The notes below the pieces were generated by a model that had not been told where the DNA came from, did not search any database, and worked only from the letters and a program-made list of their open reading frames with translations. Below, in pieces: positions 15,877-37,070 of a DNA stretch of 41,438 nt. This DNA is from a virus, in the IMG/VR virus record IMGVR_UViG_3300028590_000045, positions 1 through 41,438 of that record; one strand, given 5' to 3'. Position numbers and translations under genes: made by a program. Positions within the stretch are counted from its first letter, which is position 1. Each line of letters starts with the position of its first letter.

Positions 15877-16415
15877 TGGCATTCATCGCTCCCGCTCTTG
15901 CCGCGCTCGGGACCGCAGTCGGCGGCGCAGGCGTCACCGGCGCCGCCGCAACGGCCGTTGGTGCTACCGTCGCCTCGACCGCTGTCGCCGCACTCGGCAC
16001 CGCTGCATCCAGCCTGGCCGCTGCTAACGCGGCGTCGTTTCAGGCCGATATAGCCAAGCAACAGGCCAAGCAGGCGCAGGATCAAGCGTCGATCCGTGCA
16101 GGCGAGGTTGCACGGGAGAGCAGACAGCGTCTCGCGGCCACGCGGGCAGGCGCGATCCAGAACGGCTTCGAGCTAACCGGGTCGATGAATGATTTGCTCG
16201 ATCAGACTGCGCGGCAGGGGCAGCTTGACTATCTAACCGCCGTCTATGACGGATCGGTTCAAGCTACGGGGCTCGCGGCCACCGCTCGCAATTATCGGAT
16301 GCAGCGGTCTAACGCACTTATCACCGGAGTGCTTGGCGCAGGCGCGCAGGCGCTCGGCGGATATTCGCAGGTGCAGCGTATGCGCGGTAATGCGATCAGC
16401 GTGAGCGGCACCTGA
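15876..16415 (+). CDS. Internal virion protein B (T7 gp14-like)
   Basis: 179 residues from the ATG at 15876, coupled by TGATG to the previous gene (the longer frame from 15729 is not needed). It starts with a long Ala/Gly/Val-rich hydrophobic region, then a coiled, Gln/Lys/Ala-rich part (FQADIAKQQAKQAQDQASIRAGEVARESRQRLA) and GAIQNGFELTGSMNDLLDQTARQGQLD, typical of gp14-like core proteins. gp14 is thought to form the outer-membrane channel during DNA ejection. Confidence 0.8.
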   Translation: MAFIAPALAALGTAVGGAGVTGAAATAVGATVASTAVAALGTAASSLAAANAASFQADIAKQQAKQAQDQASIRAGEVARESRQRLAATRAGAIQNGFELTGSMNDLLDQTARQGQLDYLTAVYDGSVQATGLAATARNYRMQRSNALITGVLGAGAQALGGYSQVQRMRGNAISVSGT

Positions 16416-19273
16416 TGGCGCAACTTCCGACAATTGTTTCTACGGCGAACCGCCGCATTCTCCCTACGGCCGACCTCAAGGTCGATGGTGTCACGCCGGC
16501 GGCGTTCGGCGCAGGTATCGGCGCGGGGCTCCAGCAAATAGGCGAGGCGGGTCAGCAGACCGGTGCGGCGATGCAGGCGCTCGTGCTCGCCAAACAGCAG
16601 GAGGAAGATCGGCTCGCGGAGTTCGATCGACAGACGCAGTTCGTTAGCTTTGGTTCCGATCAGTCGACGAAGCTGACGGAGGCGTCGCGCGATCTATCCG
16701 GCCCGGCGCAGGATTTCACGAAGTCGCGCATGGAGGGCTTCGACGCCGATGCGGCGCAGTTCTTGGAGAAGGTGCCCGAGCGCTTCCGGCCGGCGTGGCA
16801 GGCGCGTATGGCGCAGCTTCGCGCCGGTGTTGCCGGCGAAGCGTTGCGGACAGAGTTCACGCAGCGCGACAGCTACTACAAGACGACAATCGGCGACACG
16901 CTCGGCAAGCTGCTGAACGGGGCTATGTCATCGCCAGACAAGCTCGACGATTGGCGCGCTCAGGGCGAAGAGATCATCAACACGTCGGGTCTGTCTGCGC
17001 AGGACAAACTTGAGTACGCGACCCGGTGGAAGGGCCAGATCGGCGTGGCCGCCGCGCAGGGCGATCTTCAGCGCGATCCTGAAGGAGCGATGGCTCGGCT
17101 CGGCGGCATAGACTTTATTGTCGAGACGAAAGACGGGTATGCCGGCAGCGGTGCGAGCTACACGAAGGGCGGGCAAGCGTCGCTGAAAGGCGATATCATC
17201 AACTTCTTCGTCGGCAAAGGTGTGCCGCAATCTGTTGCGCGAGGCATCGCCGCCGGTATCGAGAGCGAGAGCTCCGGCAATCACCGTGCCGTCAACGACA
17301 GCAGCGGCGCATACGGGCTCGGCCAGTGGCTAGGGCCGCGCAAGGAAGCGCTGTTCGCGCGCTACGGCAGCAACCCGACGCGAGAGCAGCAGTTGGAGTT
17401 CCTGTATTCGGAACTGAAGGGCGGCGATCGAGGCGGCCCCGCGGTGCTGGCCGCCAAGGACGAAGGGCAGGCGGTCGATCGGTATATCCGCGGCTTCATG
17501 CGTCCCGGCAAGGACACTGAGACTGGCGTCAAGCGCGGTATGCGTGCGCTCGGCTACAAGGTGCAAGAAGCGAAGCGCGAGCCCGATTACGGTTCGCAAA
17601 CTGCCGGCGGAATGATCGCGCCCGGTAACATCGATCTGGCGAACCGCAAGGCCGTGAACAACGCCGACGGTAGCATATCGACTGAACAATCCTTCTCGAT
17701 TGGAACAGATAAGGGCGAGGTGCTGATCCCTCGTGTGGTGAACGGAAAGGTTATCTCGGAAGCGCAGGCTATTGCGCATTTTCGTCGCACCGGTGAAAAT
17801 CTCGGCACGTTCCGCACGCCTGAAGATGCAGATCGTTACGCCGAGCAGCTTCATCAACGGCAAGAAGCTCGCTATAGCAAGAGCGGCAACGGCCCTGACG
17901 TATCGACCCGACTTGTTGGCAACGGCCAGGTGGACCCGCGCTATGCCGATATTCCGATCGACGCGCGCGTCCAGTTGATCGGCGCGGCCGAGCGGGAGAT
18001 TGCCGGGCGCGAGCGCGAAGTGAAGATTGCCGAAGCCGAAGTGCATGATAAATGGGTGAACCAATTCATGCTTGATCTCAGCGACGGCAAGGCTGGCCCG
18101 GAGGATATAGAGGCCGCGCGCAAGTCGGGCAGGCTTACCGACTTCGACGAGATCAATCGTGCGCAGAGCATCGTCGAAGCGCGGCAGAAGGCGAACATCG
18201 ATATCGACACGTTCAACGCCTTGTCGGCGACGCCCGGCTTTGCATGGAACCCTTACGACGATCGTCAGCGTAAGGCCGTCGACGCCGCGGTCACTGCGCA
18301 GGGCGGTACGCCGCAGGCCGCCTTCAATGTGTGGCAGAAGACCGGCATTCTTGGCAAAGCAGGCGGAGTAGCGCTGCGCGGCGCGATGATCTCCACCGAT
18401 CCGAATACCGTCAGTGCCGGCGCATCGATTGCTTCGAATATGCTGGCACGTAACCCGAACGCCTTCGCGGGCGTGGAAGGCGGCGAAGAGATCGAGCGTA
18501 ACGCGCTGCTCTACGGGCATTACGTCAACGATCTTGGCTATTCGCCGGGCGATGCCGCGAAGCGCGTGGCCGAGCAGAACACGCCGGAGATGCGCCGAAA
18601 AATCCAGATGGGCCAGCCGGAAGTCGCGGCGTTCCGCAAGACGGTGCAGCGCACCGACGTTCAGGGCATGCTCGGCAAGGCGCTCGACACGACATGGTTC
18701 GACGGCAGGCCGACGTTCCTTGGGCCGGAACAGCGGCAGGCGGCCGGCCAGGACTATGCCGATCTCGCCGCCGATCATTTCCAGCGCTACGGCGATGCCA
18801 ACGCGGCGCAGTCCTATGCGTCCGCGCAGATGCGCCGGCTCTATGGCGTCGTGAATGGGCGGCTGATGAAGTATCCGCCGACGCGCGCTTATCCGGTTAT
18901 CGGCGGATCGCAGAGCTATATTTTCGAGCAGGCGGCCGCCGATATCAAGAAGGTGACGGGGCGCACCGTAGACCCGAGCAAGGTATATTTGATGCCGATC
19001 CCCACGGCGACTGCCGAAGCTTTCCGCGCCGGCAAGGCACCGCCGTACGAGGTGCATTACGTCGATAAAGTGAACGGCCAGAACGTTTATCGTGTGCTGA
19101 ATGGGCAGGCGTTCTACGCCGATCCGCGTGTCGCTGCGCGCGCCGCGGGACAGGCAAACAAGGTTCGGCTGGAGAAAGAACGGCAGGATTATCTCGCTCG
19201 CGAGCAGTTCGAACGTGACGCCACTGTTGCACGCTTCGGCTATCTGCCGGGCGTGAATGCGCCTGGGAAGTAG
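16415..19273 (+). CDS. Internal virion protein C with lysozyme domain (T7 gp15 position)
   Basis: 952 residues. After a helical N-terminal region, about residues 250-390 match the phage tail lysozyme pattern: IINFFVGKGVPQSVARGIAAGIESES, then SGAYGLGQWLGPRKEAL. Next is GNIDLANRKAVNNADGSIST...GEVLIPRVVNGKVIS..AI.HFRRTGENLGTF, a module I know from other T7-like core proteins. The remainder is long and helical. It probably breaks peptidoglycan and forms part of the ejection channel. In T7 itself the murein-cleaving domain is in gp16, so the activity is placed one gene earlier here. Confidence 0.8.
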   Translation: MAQLPTIVSTANRRILPTADLKVDGVTPAAFGAGIGAGLQQIGEAGQQTGAAMQALVLAKQQEEDRLAEFDRQTQFVSFGSDQSTKLTEASRDLSGPAQDFTKSRMEGFDADAAQFLEKVPERFRPAWQARMAQLRAGVAGEALRTEFTQRDSYYKTTIGDTLGKLLNGAMSSPDKLDDWRAQGEEIINTSGLSAQDKLEYATRWKGQIGVAAAQGDLQRDPEGAMARLGGIDFIVETKDGYAGSGASYTKGGQASLKGDIINFFVGKGVPQSVARGIAAGIESESSGNHRAVNDSSGAYGLGQWLGPRKEALFARYGSNPTREQQLEFLYSELKGGDRGGPAVLAAKDEGQAVDRYIRGFMRPGKDTETGVKRGMRALGYKVQEAKREPDYGSQTAGGMIAPGNIDLANRKAVNNADGSISTEQSFSIGTDKGEVLIPRVVNGKVISEAQAIAHFRRTGENLGTFRTPEDADRYAEQLHQRQEARYSKSGNGPDVSTRLVGNGQVDPRYADIPIDARVQLIGAAEREIAGREREVKIAEAEVHDKWVNQFMLDLSDGKAGPEDIEAARKSGRLTDFDEINRAQSIVEARQKANIDIDTFNALSATPGFAWNPYDDRQRKAVDAAVTAQGGTPQAAFNVWQKTGILGKAGGVALRGAMISTDPNTVSAGASIASNMLARNPNAFAGVEGGEEIERNALLYGHYVNDLGYSPGDAAKRVAEQNTPEMRRKIQMGQPEVAAFRKTVQRTDVQGMLGKALDTTWFDGRPTFLGPEQRQAAGQDYADLAADHFQRYGDANAAQSYASAQMRRLYGVVNGRLMKYPPTRAYPVIGGSQSYIFEQAAADIKKVTGRTVDPSKVYLMPIPTATAEAFRAGKAPPYEVHYVDKVNGQNVYRVLNGQAFYADPRVAARAAGQANKVRLEKERQDYLAREQFERDATVARFGYLPGVNAPGK

Positions 19274-27784: not shown

Positions 27785-28207
27785 ATGGAAGATCGCCTGA
27801 CACGACACCCCGGATCGGCTGACGAGCTTCAGCTTCAAATCCTAGGGCAAATCCGCGATAACCTGTCGGCGATAAATCGCAAACAGGACACGATCGACGG
27901 CAAGCTCGACGACGTGAATATCCGTGTCGTCCGTCTCGAAGAGCGCGACGAACGGCTGGAGCGGGCCGAGAAGGCGATCGATAAGATGAGCGGCAAGCTC
28001 GACGTCCTGATGCGCGACAAGGATGAACGCGCCGGGGCCGGGCGGGTGTTCGTCGGCATCCGCGGATGGACGCCGATCATCATTGCGCTCGTGTCGGCGT
28101 TCGCTTCTATTGCAACGGCGCTCTACCTTTCCGGCCGGGCCGCCGGCGTTGTTCCTGCGCCGCCCGGTTATATCGCGCCTCAACCGAAAGACGGCAGCGC
28201 CACATAG
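27785..28207 (+). CDS. Coiled-coil protein with one membrane span
   Basis: 140 residues from the ATG at 27785 (AGAGG six bases upstream); the longer frame runs antisense to the zinc-finger gene. A coiled-coil stretch (LQLQILGQIRDNLSAINRKQDTIDGKLDDVNIRVVRLEERDERLERAEK-like, about residues 17-75) precedes a span WTPIIIALVSAFASIATALYL and a short Pro-rich tail. The plan resembles small XhlA-like or tail-associated membrane proteins near lysis genes. Its last 28 bases overlap the convergent PrimPol gene. Confidence 0.6.
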   Translation: MEDRLTRHPGSADELQLQILGQIRDNLSAINRKQDTIDGKLDDVNIRVVRLEERDERLERAEKAIDKMSGKLDVLMRDKDERAGAGRVFVGIRGWTPIIIALVSAFASIATALYLSGRAAGVVPAPPGYIAPQPKDGSAT

Positions 28208-30075
28208 CGGCGGCCGCCGAACGGAATCATCGTTACCGCGCCGCTCTCGACCGCAAAGGCGAGCACCTGATCCCACTTGCGCTTGAAGTTCGACACATCC
28301 TTCGAGCCGTCGTAGCGATCCTTGAAGACGTTCTTGGCGATCTCGATATCGACGCAGGTGCGGCCCTCGATCTCTTCAGGCTCTTCGACAAGCGCCCATT
28401 CGATGCTCTGCACCAATAGCTCGACGTGCTTCGGTATCTTCGTGAGATCGCGCTGCGACGGCGGCGCGTCGGACACATAGCAGGAGGTGACGGTGCGGCC
28501 GCGGCTGTCGCGGCCGAGTTCCTTCGGGATCAGCGTGAAGACGCCGAGCGAACGCTGCTGAGCGTCGCGAGCTTTCGTGACGCTCAGCTCACGAATGCTG
28601 TTTGTCTTCTCGCGAGTGATCTCGATAACTACGTCGACGTCATTGAAGATCGCACCCGCTCCCCGCTGGCCTTTGCCGTCTTTCGGGGGGTGATGCGTGA
28701 CGAACACGAAGGCGTTCAGCATCTCCGACAGCTTAGACAGCGCCTTCATGGCAATGCCTGCCTCGCTGTTGTCGTTCTCGTCGCGCAAGAGGCCGGAGGC
28801 CGAGAGCGTATCGATCGCGACCATGCGGACCGGGACGTCAAACCTTGCCTCCATCGCGGCCATCTGCTGCTTCAGGTCTTCGGCCAGGGCTTCGAGCGCG
28901 CCTGCCGCGGCGAGGTTGTTGATATCGCCGGCGACGATCGGGAGGCGATCCGCCTCGCCGAGCGCCTCCATACGGTTGAGCACCGATCGGCGGCCTTCGC
29001 CGGTCAGGATTATTGAGCCGCCACGGTCGTCGGGTTCTATCCCGAAGAACCCCTTGCCCGTCGCCAGCGAGCGAGCAAGGTGCATCAGCACGAAGGTCTT
29101 GCCTCCCTGCGACGGACCGGAAAGCACGCCGACGCCGGTTTGCGGCAGCAATTCGTAGAACAGCCACGTCGCATCGAAGTTGATCGCGTCGCCATGTGCC
29201 TGCCAGCGTCGATCTACGGGCGCTGGAGCGGCGTAACGCGCTTCGGGCATCTCACCTACCCCGGCGAAGTCAACGGCCGGTGACTGCCCTCCTGCGGCCG
29301 ACAGGGCGTATAGGAAGGCGTTGTCGACCTTCTGCCGTAGTTCCTCCAAATTCCACGGCGGCGAGCAGCGGTCGTTCCAGCGCTCGGCCATCAAGTCAAA
29401 TGCCGTCTCGGCCGACAGCCCCATGTCCTTGACGATGCAGGCGACACGGAACGTCAGATCGTCGCCGCCCATGCCTTCGACGGCAAGCGGCGCTTCGGTT
29501 TCGAGATACTTCGTGGCGCGGGCCAACGCGAACTCCGTGTCGAGTTCCGTCGCGGCTGCTGCGCCGCTGCGCTCGCGAGGCTCGTCGAGCCGGGCGATCA
29601 GCGTCGACGGGGCGACGGCCATCGGCGCGTCGTTGTCCACCTCGTAGGTGCCTTCGGGGACTATAGAGCCCGGCGCAATGACGTAGCCATGCGCACTTCG
29701 GATATCCAAGCCATCGCCGATCTTGCCGGCGGACAGGCTCTTCGACGGGCCTGCCAGATAGGCGTGGCGGCCGCCAGTTGGTGTGCGCACCATCAGCGTA
29801 TCGAGCGGAAGATCAAGAGCCATGTAGGACGCCATACCGTCCTTGCCCTTCTTCATATCTATATCAACGACAATCATGTCGTCGGTCGCGACACCGATGT
29901 TGTGATCGAGCGGCCAGCCGGTGACGGGATCACTCCACATGGCGGCGACGGCAGCGACGTCCGCGGTCGCGACGTCGTAGAACGCCTTGACGCGCGGCTC
30001 CTTCGCGCCGGGGATGCACGGGAAGACCCTAAATCCGCGAGCGGCCCATGCCAGTGCGTGATCGCGCATGTTCAT
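28180..30075 (-). CDS. PrimPol-helicase (bifunctional primase-polymerase fused to AAA ATPase)
   Basis: 631 residues. The N-terminal about 165 residues match the PrimPol family: FRVFPCIPGAKEP, catalytic DID (71-73) and GGRHAYL (His 104). After a linker containing DFAGV (269-273) comes a RepA/AAA-like ATPase: Walker A GPSQGGKT (320-327), Walker B MVAIDTLSAS (about 418-427), and a His-rich sensor FVFVTHHPPKDGKGQRGAG. It would prime and unwind phage DNA. ATG at 30075 shares its A with the upstream HNH stop (TAATG). It is the last gene of the leftward block. Confidence 0.88.
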   Translation of the reverse strand: MNMRDHALAWAARGFRVFPCIPGAKEPRVKAFYDVATADVAAVAAMWSDPVTGWPLDHNIGVATDDMIVVDIDMKKGKDGMASYMALDLPLDTLMVRTPTGGRHAYLAGPSKSLSAGKIGDGLDIRSAHGYVIAPGSIVPEGTYEVDNDAPMAVAPSTLIARLDEPRERSGAAAATELDTEFALARATKYLETEAPLAVEGMGGDDLTFRVACIVKDMGLSAETAFDLMAERWNDRCSPPWNLEELRQKVDNAFLYALSAAGGQSPAVDFAGVGEMPEARYAAPAPVDRRWQAHGDAINFDATWLFYELLPQTGVGVLSGPSQGGKTFVLMHLARSLATGKGFFGIEPDDRGGSIILTGEGRRSVLNRMEALGEADRLPIVAGDINNLAAAGALEALAEDLKQQMAAMEARFDVPVRMVAIDTLSASGLLRDENDNSEAGIAMKALSKLSEMLNAFVFVTHHPPKDGKGQRGAGAIFNDVDVVIEITREKTNSIRELSVTKARDAQQRSLGVFTLIPKELGRDSRGRTVTSCYVSDAPPSQRDLTKIPKHVELLVQSIEWALVEEPEEIEGRTCVDIEIAKNVFKDRYDGSKDVSNFKRKWDQVLAFAVESGAVTMIPFGGRRYVALPSFG

Positions 30076-30539
30076 TAAAACAGTCGGAGAATAGAGTTGA
30101 GGGTTTCGCGAGCGGCAGCCGCTTCGCGAGGGCAGTCATAACCGTCAGTCAACAGCGGATAGTATTTCCCCCCGATACGCACGACCTGTCTCCCTGTCTC
30201 GCGCACGGCGATGTTGCGGTTGTTCTCTTGTGTGCTGACGTCCTGAAGATTGCACCACCGATTGTCGTCGCGAACGCCGTTCAGGTGATCCACCTTATCG
30301 ACAGGTAGCTTGCCGGTCATGAAGAGAAACGCCGCCCGATGTTCCGGCACCACGATTCTCTCGCCGTCGACGTGCAGCCGCAGCGTTCGATAGCCTACCC
30401 CGGCGGGGTGCCCTGCGCGCTTACCGACGCCGCGCGAGTGGCCGCCCTGCGATCGATCAACGAGCCGGATAAAGTGTCCGGTGTCAGGGTTATAGCTGAA
30501 AGTTGCGAGCAGCAGAGCTTCGACGTCGGGCGCGGACAT
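30075..30539 (-). CDS. HNH endonuclease (free-standing)
   Basis: 154 residues. The HNH_3-type core is VDHLNGVRDDNRWCNLQDVSTQENNRN (D-H...N...N), preceded by the beta-strand region GYRTLRLHVDGERIVVPEHRAAF. Such proteins are usually homing endonucleases that spread between phage genomes. It sits between the winged-helix-like gene and PrimPol and is coupled to PrimPol by TAATG. Confidence 0.85.
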   Translation of the reverse strand: MSAPDVEALLLATFSYNPDTGHFIRLVDRSQGGHSRGVGKRAGHPAGVGYRTLRLHVDGERIVVPEHRAAFLFMTGKLPVDKVDHLNGVRDDNRWCNLQDVSTQENNRNIAVRETGRQVVRIGGKYYPLLTDGYDCPREAAAARETLNSILRLF

Positions 30540-30548
30540 GACGACCGC

Positions 30549-30806
30549 CTACAGCGCGCAGAGGCAATAGGTGCCCTTCAGCCGGCCGGGCTTGACCGCC
30601 TTGCGGTGTTCGCGCAGACGGCGGTTCAGCTTCGTGATGTAGGGGCCGAGATACTGCTGCGCCTCGCGCAGCGGCTTGCCCTCGCGCGGATCGACGATCG
30701 ACGTGTAGATTTCGAGGATATCGACGTCGCCCTTCCCGTCGAGGAACCGATACAGTTCGCCGAGTTTAGGGGGCAATTCGAGGGTCTTCGGTGCTGCGGA
30801 CGCCAT
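30549..30806 (-). CDS. Small winged-helix-like protein
   Basis: 85 residues; ATG at 30806 after AAACGGAGAAGCAC. LGELYRFLDGKGDVDILEIYTSIV, then YITKLNRRLREHRKAVKPGRLKGTYCL resembles a recognition helix plus beta-hairpin wing of winged helix domains (compare the GRGYRL ending of OmpR-type domains). It follows the palindromic element at 30833-30846. It may regulate late-block transcription or act in replication; both are inference. Confidence 0.6.
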   Translation of the reverse strand: MASAAPKTLELPPKLGELYRFLDGKGDVDILEIYTSIVDPREGKPLREAQQYLGPYITKLNRRLREHRKAVKPGRLKGTYCLCAL

Positions 30807-30832
30807 GTGCTTCTCCGTTTAGGCGTGTAGGT

Positions 30833-30846
30833 GTAACTTGTTATGC
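30833..30846 (-). promoter_or_regulatory. Palindromic element upstream of winged-helix/PrimPol block
   Basis: Read toward the gene this is GCATAACAAGTTAC, ending 27 bases before the ATG at 30806. It lies in the 52-base gap after the polymerase stop and has the same halves, spacing and orientation as the copies at 576, 36369 and 4201. Likely an operator or promoter part. Confidence 0.55.
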
Positions 30847-30858
30847 GGCGTCGCGCAA

Positions 30859-33039
30859 CTACTTGACGTAGCGAATATCCTCCCACGCGCTGACGGCGAC
30901 GGGCATGTCGGCGCACCACGGATCGGGTTGCGCCATGATCCGCTGATACTCGTCGGCCGAGCCGAAGAGCGTGTCGACTTCGCTGACGTTTTCGTCGTGG
31001 ACGGTGAGCACGAGCGGATAGCCGGCTGCTTCGACGCGGAACATGCTGGCGACGAGCTTGTCGCGGGCGAGCCCCTGCACGACGTTGTTGAACTGGAGCC
31101 CACCATAGAGGCGGTGCGGCTCCCATCGCTTCGTGTAGCTGTTCACCGCGTCGTATTCGACCGCATATTTGTAGCGGCCGGGCGTCGCTTCCACCCAAAT
31201 CTTCTCGCCGCCAATGCCGATGATCTCGTGCGCCTTCTTCGGCGCTTCGATTTGCTGGCGCACCATGCGCGGCATCGCGTAGCATAGCACCCGGCCGCTC
31301 GGGAGGCGGCAATAGAGAAAGCCGTTCGCAGCAAGATACACGACGCGGCTGTTCAGGACCGGCACCTTCAGCCCCGGCGTGCCAACGGCCGCGATGGCTG
31401 CGTCCTGCAAATCCCACCACGCCTGCACGATATTTGGATGCGCGGCGCGCCACGCGTTAACGACACACTTTACGCCGGTCCACGTATCCTGATCCAACCC
31501 GCGGCTATCCTCGTCGCTGTAATACGTGGAGACGCGGTGCCACTCTTCGGGCGCGACGGCCGTGCGCGCCACGGCGGCCACCTGCGCAGGCTTGATCCCG
31601 TAGCCGGCCGCCATCGCGATATACGCGCCTACGCTGCCCTGATAGCCGAGCGCGAGTTCCTGCACCTTGCCGATCTGACGCTCGGCCTTCGTCACCGTCT
31701 CGACGTCCTGGCCGAACGAGCGGGCATAGGACAGCTTGTAAAGATCGGCGCCCTCACCGCGATCGTAGGCGCGGAAAGCTTCGAGCTTCCAGTGTTCGTC
31801 GGCGATCCACGCCGCACCGCGCCCTTCGATGTTGCTGAAGTCGCCGCTCACGAACTTCTTGCCGGACGGGGCGACGAGCATGGCGCGCATGCACTTCGCG
31901 ACTGTCTCCAGCGCCGGACCGATTACGGCCTCGATCGCGTCGACGATCTCCTTGGCGCTGCGCTGGAGCGCGAGAAGGTCGATCGCCATCATCACGTCGG
32001 GCAGATCGTCGGCGTCAAGGCGAAGGAAGTTCTGCGGCTGCATGATCCGCCCCGCCCATCGCCCGGTGGCCGCACCATGATAGGCGAGCGTTCCTCGGAC
32101 GCGGCCGTCGCTGCACACGCTGTTGAGCATCGCCTTGAACTTTGCAGTGCTCGTTCGCGCCGCTGCTCGGCGCAGGCGGATCGCCTCTTCGGCCGTAGTA
32201 TCGCCCATGATCGACGTCGCTAGCACGATTTCTTCGACTTCGCCTTTGGCGACGCTCACGCAGGGGATGCCGCGGTCGTTGAGCCACTTCACGAGCTTCG
32301 CCGCTTCGGAGCATTTGCGCACCGCGCCGTCCGTCAGCCACCACATATGATCGTCGGCACGCTTTAGCGCCTCTTCGACCACGGCAAGGGCGCGTTCCAC
32401 CGACTTGACATCGATCATCACGCCGCGATCGTTGATCGTCTGATCCAGTTCCCACACGCGCCGTTCTTCGGGGGAGAGCGCGGGGATCGACCGGTCGACG
32501 TCCGTCTCTGTCTCGACATCCTGATCGCAGTAATCCATGAGGCGGCCGACGCGCTCTTCGTCATCCCACCATACAACTGTGCCGTCAGGATCGATGCGGC
32601 GAGGCTTGCACATACGCATCATCAGCGCGTGCCCTTCCTTGTCCTTCTGCATCGGCGTCTTCAGCGCCCGGCCGAGTTGATCGAGCGAGGCGGGCAGGGC
32701 GAGCGCAAGCCCGCGGGCCATCGTGCAATCCTGCTGCTCGATACGCAGCGCCGGCCAGTGCGGCACGACGCGCTTCAGCAACGCCCAATTCCATATCGTC
32801 CGCTCGAACCCGGCGTTGTGGGCGACGACGCGGCCGCCACTCTCAATATGGGCGAGCAGTTCGTAAGGGTCTTCGTCTCCGGGCCGCCAGCGATTGACGA
32901 TTCCGCGCTCACCGATGCGCCACGACAAGCATATCGCACCGGTGAGCGGGTGTTCGGCGTAGCGATAGACGCCGGCCTTCTTCAGATCGACAGTGGCGCG
33001 CGTCTCGAAGTCGATATGGGCGGCTAGCTCTTGCGACAT
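30859..33039 (-). CDS. DNA polymerase, family A, with 3'-5' exonuclease
   Basis: 726 residues from the ATG at 33039 (MSQELAAHIDFETR; a start at 33069 adds ten less likely residues). Exonuclease motifs: HIDFET (residues 8-13), VAHNAGFE, and YCDQDVETE. Polymerase motifs: A, SGDFSNIEGRG; B, ERQIGKVQELALGYQGSVGAY with the K and Y in place; C, TVHDEN. It is the replicative polymerase. No thioredoxin-binding loop of T7 type is obvious. Confidence 0.92.
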   Translation of the reverse strand: MSQELAAHIDFETRATVDLKKAGVYRYAEHPLTGAICLSWRIGERGIVNRWRPGDEDPYELLAHIESGGRVVAHNAGFERTIWNWALLKRVVPHWPALRIEQQDCTMARGLALALPASLDQLGRALKTPMQKDKEGHALMMRMCKPRRIDPDGTVVWWDDEERVGRLMDYCDQDVETETDVDRSIPALSPEERRVWELDQTINDRGVMIDVKSVERALAVVEEALKRADDHMWWLTDGAVRKCSEAAKLVKWLNDRGIPCVSVAKGEVEEIVLATSIMGDTTAEEAIRLRRAAARTSTAKFKAMLNSVCSDGRVRGTLAYHGAATGRWAGRIMQPQNFLRLDADDLPDVMMAIDLLALQRSAKEIVDAIEAVIGPALETVAKCMRAMLVAPSGKKFVSGDFSNIEGRGAAWIADEHWKLEAFRAYDRGEGADLYKLSYARSFGQDVETVTKAERQIGKVQELALGYQGSVGAYIAMAAGYGIKPAQVAAVARTAVAPEEWHRVSTYYSDEDSRGLDQDTWTGVKCVVNAWRAAHPNIVQAWWDLQDAAIAAVGTPGLKVPVLNSRVVYLAANGFLYCRLPSGRVLCYAMPRMVRQQIEAPKKAHEIIGIGGEKIWVEATPGRYKYAVEYDAVNSYTKRWEPHRLYGGLQFNNVVQGLARDKLVASMFRVEAAGYPLVLTVHDENVSEVDTLFGSADEYQRIMAQPDPWCADMPVAVSAWEDIRYVK

Positions 33040-33073
33040 TGCTCTGGGTAATCCTCGTCGACGCCCCACCGCT

Positions 33074-33511
33074 TCAAGCAGTGCGGGCAGAAAAGCTCGT
33101 CGCCTTCACGTCGTGGTGCGTGTTCTCTAGCCAGGGCGGGGGCCAGTGAAACGGAATGCCGTCGCACGGTTCCGGCTCGGGATAGGGGTACGGGTCGCAC
33201 CCCACCTGAACCCTTATCCACTGGAGTTCTCGATTGATCGACGCTTCCACGGGGCGAAGATGCTGCTGGCACAGCGTGTTCGTGCATTCGTGATCGACTT
33301 GAAGACCGGCGATTTCGTGGCCGTGAATGAACTTCGCGGCCCATCGGTGCGCGAACCACCGCCTCCCTTCAAACCAAAAACTGCCATAAGGGACGTGGTG
33401 CCCTCGCCCTTGCGTGGTGCCGCCGACCCACAGCACGCACCCACTGGCCGGATCGAACCGGCACTTTTCGACAAAACGCTGAAGAGCGGTTCTCTCCGGC
33501 CAGCGGGGCAT
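33074..33511 (-). CDS. HNH endonuclease (free-standing)
   Basis: 145 residues from the ATG at 33511 (MPRWPERTALQRFVEKC), five bases after the upstream stop; longer frames run over the DUF2815 gene. Core motifs: CRFDPASGCVLWVGG, FAHRWAAKFIHGH, LQVDHECTNTLCQQHLRPVEASINREL, a typical HNH_3 arrangement with flanking Cys that may bind zinc. Probably a mobile homing nuclease placed between the ssDNA-binding protein and polymerase genes. Confidence 0.82.
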   Translation of the reverse strand: MPRWPERTALQRFVEKCRFDPASGCVLWVGGTTQGRGHHVPYGSFWFEGRRWFAHRWAAKFIHGHEIAGLQVDHECTNTLCQQHLRPVEASINRELQWIRVQVGCDPYPYPEPEPCDGIPFHWPPPWLENTHHDVKATSFSARTA

Positions 33512-33515
33512 GGCA

Positions 33516-34181
33516 TCAGAACAGGCTTGCCGGGTTGACCGAGGCCGCCTGCGCGCTCGTGTCGATCGACACGCCCGCGAAGTCCGCGGCGGGGTTGCCC
33601 CCGCCACCGCCGAAGGTGCGATCCTTGGCGATCATCATCAGGCCGTTGAGCCCGAAGCTGACGCCCTTCTTCAAGCCGCTGTCGAAGACGAACGGCCGGA
33701 GCACCATCAGATACCAAAAGCCGCTCTGCGCTTCGTCCTGATTGACGATCGGCGCGCCACGCGCGTCGACGATATAGGGCTGGCGCTGATCGGCCACGCC
33801 GACGACGAAGACGCCGCCGGGCGTGTAGCCTTCGATGTTCGCCTTGTCGGCCTGCTGGCGGAACGGGGTGTGCAGCGTCGGGCCGCCCACCTGGCCGGCC
33901 GTGGGCCACTTCGCGAGCGCCGCCTCGGTCGCAGCCGTCTTCAGGACGGAGAGATCGGCGGCGGGCGGGAAGAGAGCCGTGGCGGTGAACTTGCCCTGCG
34001 TCGCCGGCGGCACGGGCTTGCCCCGCGCGAAGACGTTGAGGAAGCTGCCGCGCACCGGGCCGGTGCGGTAGTTGCCGTTGGGCTGTCCGTTGGCGTCGAT
34101 CACCTTCTGGCAAGGGAACTTCGCCCACATTTCCTCGATCCACTTCGGGTCCATGTCGGAAGCGTTCATCTGATACGTCAT
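33516..34181 (-). CDS. DUF2815-type single-stranded DNA-binding protein
   Basis: 221 residues. The body (GSFLNVFARGKPVPPATQGKFTATALFPP...PTLHTPFRQQADK...GYTPGGVFV...GFWYLMVLRPFVFDSGLKKGVSFGLNGLMMI) matches the DUF2815 family of phage OB-fold ssDNA-binding proteins, usually encoded beside a DUF2800 nuclease as here. The C-terminal tail has DFAGV (200-204) and ends NPASLF. SSB-type proteins recruit partners through their C-tips, so this tail is a likely docking site. GAGGACCGAGATC precedes the ATG. Confidence 0.85.
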   Translation of the reverse strand: MTYQMNASDMDPKWIEEMWAKFPCQKVIDANGQPNGNYRTGPVRGSFLNVFARGKPVPPATQGKFTATALFPPAADLSVLKTAATEAALAKWPTAGQVGGPTLHTPFRQQADKANIEGYTPGGVFVVGVADQRQPYIVDARGAPIVNQDEAQSGFWYLMVLRPFVFDSGLKKGVSFGLNGLMMIAKDRTFGGGGGNPAADFAGVSIDTSAQAASVNPASLF

Positions 34182-34219
34182 GATCTCGGTCCTCTGTCTC
34201 TGTTCGGTTTCAGTCTCGG

Positions 34220-35536
34220 TTAGCTGTCGATATTGACGCCCGCGAAGTCCGCGGCCGCCCCGGCGGTGACAGCATCCCGCCGATCGGTGTCCGGTGCCAT
34301 AGTCTGCCCGGAGCTATCCTTCAGGGTGAAGCGCAGCGACAGATCGTCGAGCGCTTCCTTGCGCCCCGCCTTGTCGGCGGCGGGGATGCGAGCTTTGATG
34401 AGCCGTTCGGCTTCGGTGATCGTCACGAGCTTGCGCGGATAGACGTCATCGGCCTCCACGCCGTAGATCACCTCCAGATAGCCGGCGATCTCGCTCTCGT
34501 TGTCGATCCACTTGCGGCGGCCGATCTTGTCGACGAGCTTGAAGCCCGGCACCGGCACGCCCTGCGTGAGCAACCCGAATGCGAACTCGCGCACCTGCTT
34601 CGCCCATGCGTCGAGCACGTCGAGCCCCTGAAGCAGCTTGCCGATCCGGGCCGTGTCCATGTCGGCCGGCTTCGGCAGCGCCTTCGGGCTGATCCCCGCA
34701 ATGTCGCTGAAGTCGATGCCGATCGAAGCCGTCACCTCTTCCTGCTTGGCGGGACACACGGCCGCAGCGTCGCACCACCGGCAGTGCGATCCGGGGTTGA
34801 GCGCGTCACGGATCGCGAGCGGGCCGCTCTCGGCGAGGCGGGCGTCGACGGCCTTGGCGCGATCGACGGCCTGCTCGACTTCGGCGACGAACTCCAGAAG
34901 CTCGAACGTGTCCATCGGCCGGGGCTTCACCCCCGGAATGTCCTGCTCGTCGGCGTCGCGAGCGCGGGGCTGCACGATGACGAGTACGAGTTCGGCGATG
35001 CTCCAATCCGGGTGCGTCAGTGCTGCGCCGGCGGCGTAGAACTTCAACTGCGCGTTGTCTTCGGCGCTGACGCTCACCCCCTGGCCGTGCTTGTAATCGA
35101 ACACGACGAGACGGCCGAGCGAAGGGTGATAGACGAGGCAGTCGTTCGCGCCGAACACCTCGCCGTCTTCGGCCGATGCGATCGGGAGGGCGAAGCGCTG
35201 CTCGATCTCCATGATGGCGTCGGGACTGCGGCCGAGTTCTTCCTGCACGGCGTCGAGATAGACCTGCACGGCGGCCGCCATCTCTTCGGTGACGATCTTC
35301 TTCGAGGCAAGCTTCGGGCTCGTGATCTCGTCGCCGATCCGCTGCGAAGCGTCGAAGAGACGGGCGGTAAGACACTCTTCGCCAAGCTGATGCGCGAAGG
35401 TGCCCTCGTCGGCGTAGCTGCTCGAACCGCGCTCCGGCACGGTAGCACATAGTGCAGGCGAACCGGAGCAGGCGATGACACGCCCGATCACCGATCCGCC
35501 GAAACGGCTATGCGCTTTGGTGGCGTGTTCGCTCAT
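34220..35536 (-). CDS. DUF2800 PD-(D/E)XK nuclease (Cas4/RecB-like)
   Basis: 438 residues from the ATG at 35536 with CACAACGGAGAGCAGGCG upstream; longer frames lack this. N-terminal FGGSVIGRVIACSGSPALC, nuclease core FGANDCLVYHP...LVVFDYKHGQG (D..xK of PD-(D/E)XK), QLKFYAAGA, and a Cys pair HCRWCDAAAVCP that may hold an Fe-S cluster as in Cas4. The C-terminus is DFAGVNIDS, the same DFAGV as in the ssDNA-binding protein. Likely role: DNA end processing in replication-recombination. Confidence 0.85.
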   Translation of the reverse strand: MSEHATKAHSRFGGSVIGRVIACSGSPALCATVPERGSSSYADEGTFAHQLGEECLTARLFDASQRIGDEITSPKLASKKIVTEEMAAAVQVYLDAVQEELGRSPDAIMEIEQRFALPIASAEDGEVFGANDCLVYHPSLGRLVVFDYKHGQGVSVSAEDNAQLKFYAAGAALTHPDWSIAELVLVIVQPRARDADEQDIPGVKPRPMDTFELLEFVAEVEQAVDRAKAVDARLAESGPLAIRDALNPGSHCRWCDAAAVCPAKQEEVTASIGIDFSDIAGISPKALPKPADMDTARIGKLLQGLDVLDAWAKQVREFAFGLLTQGVPVPGFKLVDKIGRRKWIDNESEIAGYLEVIYGVEADDVYPRKLVTITEAERLIKARIPAADKAGRKEALDDLSLRFTLKDSSGQTMAPDTDRRDAVTAGAAADFAGVNIDS

Positions 35537-35559: not shown

Positions 35560-36336
35560 TTACGCCGCGGTCTTGGCGGCGACGAGGGCGTCGAGCGTGC
35601 GGCGCAGGATGCCCGGATCGTCCTTCGCCTTCTCGACGACGGACGGCGAGCCCGACGTGAGGCTCTTGCACCCCGTCGCCTGCTCCAGCGTCGCCATCGC
35701 GAACGATGCCGACTTGGCCTTCAGGAGATCGGCCATCGCGTCCTTCAACTGCTGCACCGTCACCTCGCCGGCGTTCTGCGCGGCCTGCACTTCGGGGCTC
35801 GTGGCGGCCGGAGTGGCCGCGACGGTTTCAGCGGAAGCAGGCGATGCCCCCGCCTGCGATGCGGTGGCATCCGCGCCGGCGGCCGGGCTGGCGAAAGGGT
35901 CGACGGCGGCCGCCTGATTGGGCGGGATGCTCTCGGCAGGCGGGGCGTCCGTTCCGCCCGGCGTGGGCTGCGGCGTCGGCTCGGGAGTTGGGGCGATCGG
36001 CGTGCCATCGGGGTTCTGCGTCGGCGCAGCGGCGATAGCGGCCTCGATCGCCGAGATGGCACCGGTGCGCTTCTTGCCGGCCTGCTCTTCGGCGAGCATG
36101 CGATCCAGCGTGGCGCGATCGGCGCTGGCCGCTGCGGTCTTGACGTCCGCGACACTCATCGCACCGACGCCGGTGTCGCTCGAAGCGGCAGGCTGCGCGG
36201 CGGGAGCAGGAGAAGGAGCCGGCGCGGCCGCGACGGTCGCGGCGGCAATGGCGGTCGACGATGCGCCGGTGAAGCGGGCGAGAAGTTGATCGAACTCCTG
36301 CACGCTGTCGGCGCTGATACGCAAATCAATAGGCAT
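35560..36336 (-). CDS. Ala/Pro-rich protein of the replication block
   Basis: 258 residues from the ATG at 36336 (CACCGGAGATCACCGCT upstream). Starts MPIDLRISADSVQEFDQLLARF, a short ordered part, then a long Ala/Pro-rich disordered region that includes AAVDPFASPAAG, then a helical C-terminal part (VQQLKDAMADLLKAKSASFAMATLEQATGCKSL). No enzyme motif. It heads the DUF2800/DUF2815/polymerase block behind a palindromic element, so it may be a replication accessory or loader. Function unknown. Confidence 0.6.
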   Translation of the reverse strand: MPIDLRISADSVQEFDQLLARFTGASSTAIAAATVAAAPAPSPAPAAQPAASSDTGVGAMSVADVKTAAASADRATLDRMLAEEQAGKKRTGAISAIEAAIAAAPTQNPDGTPIAPTPEPTPQPTPGGTDAPPAESIPPNQAAAVDPFASPAAGADATASQAGASPASAETVAATPAATSPEVQAAQNAGEVTVQQLKDAMADLLKAKSASFAMATLEQATGCKSLTSGSPSVVEKAKDDPGILRRTLDALVAAKTAA

Positions 36337-36382: not shown

Positions 36383-36565
36383 GCCGCCGTCAAGCGCCTT
36401 TCGCGCGCGGTGCCAAGCATCGTGCGAAAACTCTCCAGAGCCAAGCTCTTGTGCGCCGTCACGCACGATCCAGCGCTCGAAGGTGCGGCTCCACGAACAG
36501 CGCGCGTTCGACCGCTTCAGGAGCACCACGCCCTTGTTAGAAGATGGCGCGGGCCGCTTACTCAT
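36377..36565 (-). CDS. Small basic hypothetical protein
   Basis: 62 residues from the ATG at 36565, overlapping the HNH gene end by eight bases. Basic start (MSKRPAPSSNKGVVLLKRSN), then RTFERWIVRDGAQELGSGEFSHDAWHRARKALDGG, which reads as a folded small domain. The longer frame from 36781 is a shadow of the HNH gene. No family recognised. Confidence 0.5.
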   Translation of the reverse strand: MSKRPAPSSNKGVVLLKRSNARCSWSRTFERWIVRDGAQELGSGEFSHDAWHRARKALDGGA

Positions 36566-37070
36566 AGGTTTCGTGCCGTCGTGCTCGGCTGATCGTCGCC
36601 TTCGATACGCCGTGCTTCGCGGCCGCTTCCCGGCACGACAGCGACGACAATCGAATATCGGCCAGGGCTTCGGGCGACAGCGCGGCGAGGTAGTGCGCGT
36701 GCCCGCGCTTCGTCCGCCCGTGTTGATCGCGATCCGCCGCGTTGCCCTTGGCGGTCTTCCACGACAAGTTCGTTTCCGCATTGTGCGTCCGCACGCCGTC
36801 GCGGTGCGCCACCTGTGCGCCCGGAAAGGGCGGCTCGCCGTGAAAAGCGCGACAGACGAGCCGGTGCAGGCTGCGTGCGACGCGCTGATCGCCGATGCGG
36901 ATCGTCACCCATAGGTAGCCGTCCTTGCGCAGATACCCCGGCTGCTCGACGCCCGGCGCGGTGTTCCGACCGGCAGTGGCGCGACGCAATCGCCCATCAG
37001 AAGATATTTCGTAATCCGGTGCTTCCCGTAGCGGAAGCCACCGGACGTTGCGGCTGTTCGTCGGTTCCAT
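36558..37070 (-). CDS. NUMOD4-HNH homing endonuclease
   Basis: 170 residues. NUMOD4-like start RWLPLREAPDYEISSDGRLRR, HNH core LVCRAFHGEPP...VAHRDGVRTHNAETNLSWKT, then a C-terminal HTH (SLSCREAAAKHGVSKATISRARR) of the DNA-recognition type common in such nucleases. Its first 74 bases overlap the helicase gene's end in another frame, consistent with an insertion that trimmed or extended the helicase C-terminus. Confidence 0.85.
   Translation of the reverse strand: MEPTNSRNVRWLPLREAPDYEISSDGRLRRATAGRNTAPGVEQPGYLRKDGYLWVTIRIGDQRVARSLHRLVCRAFHGEPPFPGAQVAHRDGVRTHNAETNLSWKTAKGNAADRDQHGRTKRGHAHYLAALSPEALADIRLSSLSCREAAAKHGVSKATISRARRHETYE

Follow-up and report, generated by a model that had tools for sequence, protein, structure and literature searches.

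The DNA analysed here is a virus contig of 41,438 bases (IMG/VR record IMGVR_UViG_3300028590_000045), referred to over its whole length as the window, and its minus strand encodes a replication module in which the pentapeptide DFAGV occurs in three different proteins. One carrier is a primase-helicase (28180..30075) that joins a PrimPol domain to a RecA-like ATPase, with matches to Pfam Prim-Pol (PF09250, 1.9e-28, 100.3 bits against a cut-off of 22.8) and AAA_25 (7e-27). Another is a T7 gp2.5-like single-stranded DNA-binding (SSB) and annealing protein annotated as DUF2815 (33516..34181), and the last is a PD-(D/E)XK nuclease of the DUF2800 family (34220..35536, Met at 35534-35536), matched by PF10926 (4.6e-65), PDDEXK_1 (1e-8) and the exonuclease family PHROG 69. 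The SSB scored 7e-17 against PF10991 (Enc34_ssDNA-bd; 62.1 bits, curated cut-off 26) and 2.5e-23 against PHROG 112, and its structural model, with a mean confidence (pLDDT) of 88.7, matched the Enc34 SSB 5odl with a Z score of 19.4 (2.5 A over 161 residues). By profile and by OB-fold it is a member of the T7-type DUF2815 / Enc34_ssDNA-bd family. The module also holds a SNF2-type helicase and a family A DNA polymerase (PolA, 30859..33069, minus strand), in which no copy of the motif was detected.

Six-frame translation placed DFAGV exactly where the original prediction had it. The first copy (PAVDFAGV, 29257..29271, minus strand) lies in the linker that follows immediately on the PrimPol domain, starting at D269. 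The second (PAADFAGVSID, 33570..33584, minus strand) follows directly on the last OB-fold strand of the SSB, at D200 of 221 residues, and the third (AAADFAGVNIDS, 34235..34249, minus strand) is at the C-terminus of the nuclease. All six frames of the record held no DFAGV beyond these three places. The Pfam domain calls agreed with the carriers that had been named, and the earlier observation that the SSB and nuclease copies are identical over 20 bases while the PrimPol copy is spelled with other codons was borne out. The SSB itself ends in NPASLF, with Phe as its last residue (33519..33536, minus strand), and many of its homologues likewise end in LFG or LF. In a proteome of ~12,000 amino acids the chance expectation for DFAGV is 0.018 occurrences. 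Some 5-mer common to three proteins arose in 220 of 300 proteome shuffles, and REAAA is another such 5-mer here. Since 5-mers shared by three proteins are this common by chance, the case must rest on the homologues and not on the window. A large structural protein (16391-19270, plus strand) contains NAFAGVEGG, found also in L007 (L-numbers label the compared loci), which looks like a chance FAGV.

Homologues were drawn from scans of viral contigs and species genomes, with PF10926 in 199 genomes. The survey set comprised 134 loci with complete adjoining DUF2800 and DUF2815 genes, and the families were aligned independently of each other. Nuclease tails and SSB tails each showed a single Phe column in an otherwise variable tail, with Phe in 129 of 132 nucleases and 127 of 134 SSBs. 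In the PrimPol linkers, Phe stood at the place aligned with 29257-29271 in 26 of the 30 homologues that had a scored neighbour, and it was kept even in proteins whose other half is a different helicase. The residues around the Phe were also alike among the proteins: Ala at -4, Asp or Glu (or Ala, Val) at -1, and Val, Ile or Leu at +3. DFAGV is therefore a local variant of a motif found across the families, approximately A/P-x-x-[D/E/A/V]-F-x-x-[V/I]. The loss of the motif from homologous linkers or tails, which the original prediction had named as the outcome that would speak against it, was looked for, and the motif had survived in all three proteins. What did not survive was DFAGV as a conserved unit: the shared motif stands, and its conserved part is the F..[VI] pattern rather than the exact 5-mer. 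Among close relatives, FAGV is kept in the SSB tails of L006, L007, L010 and L009; the nuclease tails read DFAGV in L006, L007 and L010 and DFSSV in L009. The corresponding PrimPol linkers read DMAGT in L006, DLAGV in L007, DFAGV in L010 and QFKTV in L009, and the PrimPol copy appears as the loosest of the copies. From L006 and L007, among these four relatives, it could have been taken for a coincidence, a view ruled out by the distant PrimPols, which retain the Phe.

Other candidate carriers were rare. Single motif matches that did not recur came from small proteins in L168, L106, L143, L073 and L108 and from a helicase tail in L030, and possible rare extra carriers, each with a motif-like peptide within or close to a tail, lie at L168:2848-3402, L106:509-865, L143:2926-3618, L073:11445-12023 and L030:8041-9786. 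The extra protein in L143 reads ATEVFDPLK, and the L143 locus itself uses VF. Matches in PolA such as VAADFSNIE were not accepted as copies; they fall in the polymerase motif A region.

We then asked how the copies within one phage vary together, using 61 loci non-redundant at 50% identity and obtaining the expectation by permuting partners. The similarity of the motif segments was scored by BLOSUM with the Phe left out, and the permutation is not a full phylogenetic model. Nuclease and SSB segments were similar with z 9.5, and the residue at position -1 was identical in 39 of the 61 loci where 15 were expected. An out-of-register control, in which composition and relatedness are kept, gave a mean z of 0.09 (sd 1.28), while register-matched positions co-varied with z up to 8.4. 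For the 28 loci in which both protein cores fell below 40% identity, z was still 7.4 and position -1 was identical in 16 against 5.7 expected. The PrimPol segments followed the same course (z 6.3 with the nuclease and 5.2 with the SSB, 26 loci). Nuclease and SSB pairs include DEFSVVD / DEFSVVD in L164, AFEII / AFEPI in L082, TFKGV / QFKGV in L110, VFTNID / IFDEVE in L138 and SFFEKL / SWMETV in L015, and with PrimPol added L073 gives the triple DFTKIE / DFAPIS / VFTKIE. Conservation joined to co-variation within each phage is the signature predicted for ligands of one shared site. The proposal that the motif may recruit the three proteins to one partner is supported at the sequence level by both lines of evidence.

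A further copy came from a column scan, in which nuclease-core columns were ranked by their mutual information (MI) with the class of the tail's -1 residue. One outlier was found, at MI 0.605 with the next column at 0.229, and the outlier is the residue before a Phe in an internal loop that follows the Cys cluster. In the window this loop reads GIDFSDI, with the copy DFSDI at 34700..34714 on the minus strand. Phe occupies the loop position in 51 of 61 loci. The loop varies in step with the nuclease tail at z 7.1, with the SSB at z 5.7 and with PrimPol at z 4.0, a coupling that weakens at the strictest redundancy cut-off. Because it turned up unsought, the loop copy serves as an independent check. 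The earlier observation of three copies is incomplete, the nuclease having a second, internal one.

Presence of the motif followed the type of SSB. A large DUF2800 clade that adjoins a different protein of 214 amino acids lacks the Phe motif and has the tail LLIGQQLTNALNKL, yet PolA is present. Members of this clade without DUF2815 include L041:11144-11788 and its relatives L044, L095, L037 and L101. Here the nuclease has a tail, for example QLTAALSKL, that is similar to the start of the adjoining protein (SLSTALRSL), a likeness that may represent a second, analogous mimicry pair. PrimPols without a DUF2815 neighbour (L017, L118, and those of streptococcal and Acinetobacter phages) also lack the motif. 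Taken together, PrimPols and nucleases without such a neighbour are mostly without it. In the streptococcal phages that lack the motif, the SSBs that were read end in DDLPF or DDMPF. Vibrio phage 13VV501A encodes a diverged gp2.5-like SSB (PHROG 7011) and keeps the Phe motif in nuclease and PrimPol. Named phages with the motif show local spellings of their own: Roseobacter RDJL3 has HDFGDP in PrimPol, EDFGDD in the SSB and SDFPDD in the nuclease, Staphylococcus SAP11 has AEDDFDKL in the nuclease and AEDDFDELD in the SSB, and Pseudomonas PaMx28 has SDFDVVDD and NDFDSVDD.

Phage Enc34, from which the solved SSB structure comes, has a different aromatic-acidic ending that is common to its SSB (AYDEDEDEWDEDEV), its DUF2800 protein (AYDDEDEDDDEV) and its primase (PFDDEDEV, at the primase C-terminus); the longer peptides are GAYDDEDEDDDEV for ORF5 and PHDPFDDEDEV for ORF1. 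An aromatic residue followed by at least three acidic residues within the last 20 positions was found in exactly 4 of 79 Enc34 proteins, namely the primase, DUF2800, the SSB and the helicase, all of this module. Chi and SAKp02 have endings like those of Enc34, and FoX4 ends with L instead of V in each of the three proteins. Eight of the 79 Enc34 proteins (L254/L241) have a C-terminus of no fewer than three acidic residues followed by Val; these eight include TerS, proteins of 94 residues (at 17801) and 127 residues, and a recombination-associated protein. In Chi-like phages the gene two positions upstream of DUF2800 encodes a small protein that likewise ends in EEDDV or EEEEV (L242 gp4, L243:4773-5165, L241 ORF3); this protein may be another docking partner.

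We sought the common socket in the SSB, for whose relatives both binding of ssDNA and docking of the tail in a neighbour's groove have been published. In crystals the tails of Enc34 ORF6, the Bacillus cereus protein 4jg2, the Enterococcus faecalis protein 4klk and T7 gp2.5 all lie in the groove of the neighbouring SSB (PMC5686142), and the motif is present in the sequences of 4jg2 (ADDFTTI) and 4klk (ESDF). AlphaFold gave the tail of the window SSB a pLDDT of 83 for residues 201-210 (DFAGVSIDTS), against 68 for the floppy residues 191-200, with one helical turn before the Phe. Trimmed of its tail, the model superposed on 4jg2 with a root-mean-square deviation of 2.4 A over 160 residues, and with the tail included the value was 4.8 A over 173. 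This rise would be expected of a tail docked on its own molecule (in cis) in the model but on a neighbour (in trans) in the crystal. We also modelled a construct from L007, in which the nuclease tail is contiguous with an SSB without its own tail when the intervening stop is read as Gly. Here the block ending in DFA reached a pLDDT of 78 and the linker 46, and one helical turn again preceded the Phe; the model fits docking of the nuclease tail at the SSB's own tail site. Rival structures in the fold lists included the African swine fever virus protein CP312R at Z 6-7; that a structure is missing from these lists is no evidence against it.

It is very probable, in our assessment, that a single socket accepts all copies of the motif. 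That this common socket is the SSB groove is a step further, which we infer and consider more likely than not. The original prediction had listed the polymerase, an Ala/Pro-rich protein at 36336 and host factors as candidates for co-folding. The Ala/Pro-rich protein has no motif, no Pfam match and a weak PHROG match (7.6e-5), and the likeliest partner would be the SSB itself, with the polymerase staying as the main rival. In the explanation that we favour, with moderate confidence, a docking motif with the core [D/E/A/V]-F-x-x-[V/I/L] would be used by the module of DUF2800, gp2.5-like SSB and PolA. The SSB tail behind the OB-fold would plug the concave groove of its own or an adjacent SSB molecule, and the nuclease, through tail and internal loop, and PrimPol, through the linker after its primase domain, would carry copies of that tail motif. 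In competition with the SSB tail, these copies would push it out and take its place in the groove, and nuclease and primase would thereby be recruited to DNA covered by SSB. The exonuclease would then sit beside its annealing partner, and primers would be made on a covered template. Since all copies would have to fit one groove, they would drift together in each phage lineage.

Several observations weigh against this explanation. The AlphaFold readout is a pLDDT taken in blocks of ten residues, and the join in the L007 construct favours the peptide by making it locally more concentrated. No strongly coupled position marked the socket among the SSB-core columns (top MI 0.255); the top four correspond to residues 37, 39, 160 and 180 of the window SSB, each within a predicted strand and one pair roughly facing each other in one hairpin, a signal too weak to use. 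The anchors of the PrimPol segments were placed manually, guided by the alignment, and the PrimPol copy has lost its Phe in the closest relatives, L006 and L007. In Enc34, TerS and three other proteins also end in DDEV, so that only the aromatic-acidic part of the ending is specific there. Work on T7 adds two points, which at the same time speak for a socket on the module's family A polymerase: T7 helicase tails contact positive patches of T7 polymerase (PMC8472574), and a part in contacting polymerase and primase-helicase has been ascribed to the gp2.5 tail (PMC5686142).

A polymerase socket would leave the shared docking motif as it is and move only its partner, and it gains further from the constant presence of polA as the third gene of the module (PMC8093625). 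Against it, phages that have DUF2800 and PolA without DUF2815 lack the motif in the nuclease. PolA columns were not strongly coupled to the motif in the column scan (top MI 0.326, mean 0.091), and the motif is already ordered in a model that contains only the SSB. We consider this alternative unlikely, while keeping it ahead of the remaining ones. Among helicase columns nothing stood out, the top MI of 0.423 coming from a gap-rich column. A host replication or repair protein whose pocket the phage copies adapt to could produce co-variation as well, since variation with phage lineage would also track host lineage, and bacterial SSB tails do recruit many host partners. Host SSB-tail pockets are conserved, however, while the motif drifts strongly. 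The motif also depends on the phage's own SSB type, and the streptococcal DDLPF/DDMPF phages lack it in spite of having PrimPol. A host partner is therefore improbable in our view.

The docking explanation, whichever protein holds the socket, must also be set against readings without any docking. Each copy might have its own local structural role, the likeness being coincidence or shared composition; three-protein 5-mers are not rare in this Ala-rich proteome, and AlphaFold orders the SSB copy in cis. Against this stand the flat off-register control beside co-varying matched positions, the joint change of copies in four unrelated contexts and the absence of the motif where the SSB is of another type, and we regard coincidence as very improbable. 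Gene conversion or a shared DNA site could account for the likeness of nuclease and SSB tails at the DNA level, as the 20 bases in the window and stretches of 17 bases in L006 and L164 might suggest. The 20 bases have no significance in themselves: in L006, L007 and L010, the three closest relatives, the shared stretch is down to 17, 8 and 6 bases. Codons of matched residues were identical in 134 of 237 cases against 125.5 +- 7.1 expected; as they match no more than codon usage predicts, the peptide likeness is not the product of DNA copying, which we give next to no weight. At the DNA level we also note HNH-type-looking open reading frames within the module on the minus strand (33074-33607, 30075-30539 and 36558-37070), the first of which shares DNA with the SSB tail region in a different reading frame.

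For the SSB groove as socket, a bolder form can be stated, which we hold to be evenly balanced between true and false: across the very widespread phages with the module of DUF2800, gp2.5-like SSB and PolA, the groove would be a hub plugged by its own tail, by two nuclease sites and by the primase linker, in a self-mimicry code private to each lineage. If so, a phage replisome could stay apart from that of a co-infecting phage or of the host, and in phages with another protein in place of the SSB the nuclease tail would resemble that partner instead. How a gp2.5-like SSB, a DUF2800 nuclease and a PrimPol are held together appears to have been described in the open-access literature only as gene neighbourhood, and DUF2800 is still labelled 'unknown function' in Pfam. 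The motif offers a single-residue handle on module assembly that can be used with proteins of existing structure, the tail-truncated Enc34 ORF6 (5odk) among them. It predicts which parts are exchangeable between phages, which is relevant to recombineering tools that use these annealing proteins, and the co-drifting peptide copies form a natural data set for protein-interaction predictors.

Some elements of this picture are already known from other systems, namely SSB-tail hubs, RPA-binding peptides of human PrimPol and the tail motif of ICP8. We found no precedent in the open-access papers searched for copies of an SSB plug that co-drift in partner enzymes. Human PrimPol binds the OB-fold cleft of RPA70N through its motif RBM-A (D519/F522) (PMC5457501), and is alike in that a primase-polymerase is recruited to an SSB by a short acidic peptide with Phe. 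It differs in that SSB and primase belong to other families and the RPA work does not portray the cleft with the SSB's own tail or with co-drifting partners; since phages have no RPA, the resemblance to the RPA70N-binding motif is one of working principle only. The herpes simplex virus protein ICP8 is an annealing SSB whose Phe motif FNF, in a disordered tail, has been proposed to enter the FW pocket of the next molecule, and it likewise works with an exonuclease, UL12, but its fold is unrelated (PMC12409425). The bacterial SSB tip (DDDIPF) is similarly an acidic, Phe-bearing tail that acts as a replisome hub, with the roles reversed: there the partners hold the pocket and SSB the peptide, whereas here the proposed pocket is on the SSB and the peptide on its partners. 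Its acidic run with terminal Pro-Phe is absent from PAVDFAGV, PAADFAGV and AAADFAGVNIDS, and the SSB end NPASLF has no acidic run. Nor does the beta-clamp motif Q-x-L-[S/D]-L-F apply, as neither DFAGV nor its aligned homologues contain Gln or LF. The T7 gp4 acidic tail is also a charged, SSB-like tail on a replication enzyme that contacts the replisome (PMC8472574); there the partner is the polymerase and the site is the extreme C-terminus, while here it is a linker or an internal loop. Terminal-Phe tails of the gp2.5/gp4 type on both SSB and enzyme were not seen in the window, where the nuclease ends in ..NIDS and the PrimPol copy lies in a linker. A further comparison is with the acidic tail of T7 gp2.5 and Enc34 ORF6, in whose family the window SSB belongs and whose removal by 21 residues in the Enc34 SSB alters DNA discrimination (PMC5686142). 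A difference is that the conserved Phe here stands right behind the OB-fold and not at the terminus alone. The T7 gp2.5/Enc34 tail has been described as a feature of the SSB, whereas here the partner enzymes carry co-drifting copies of it.

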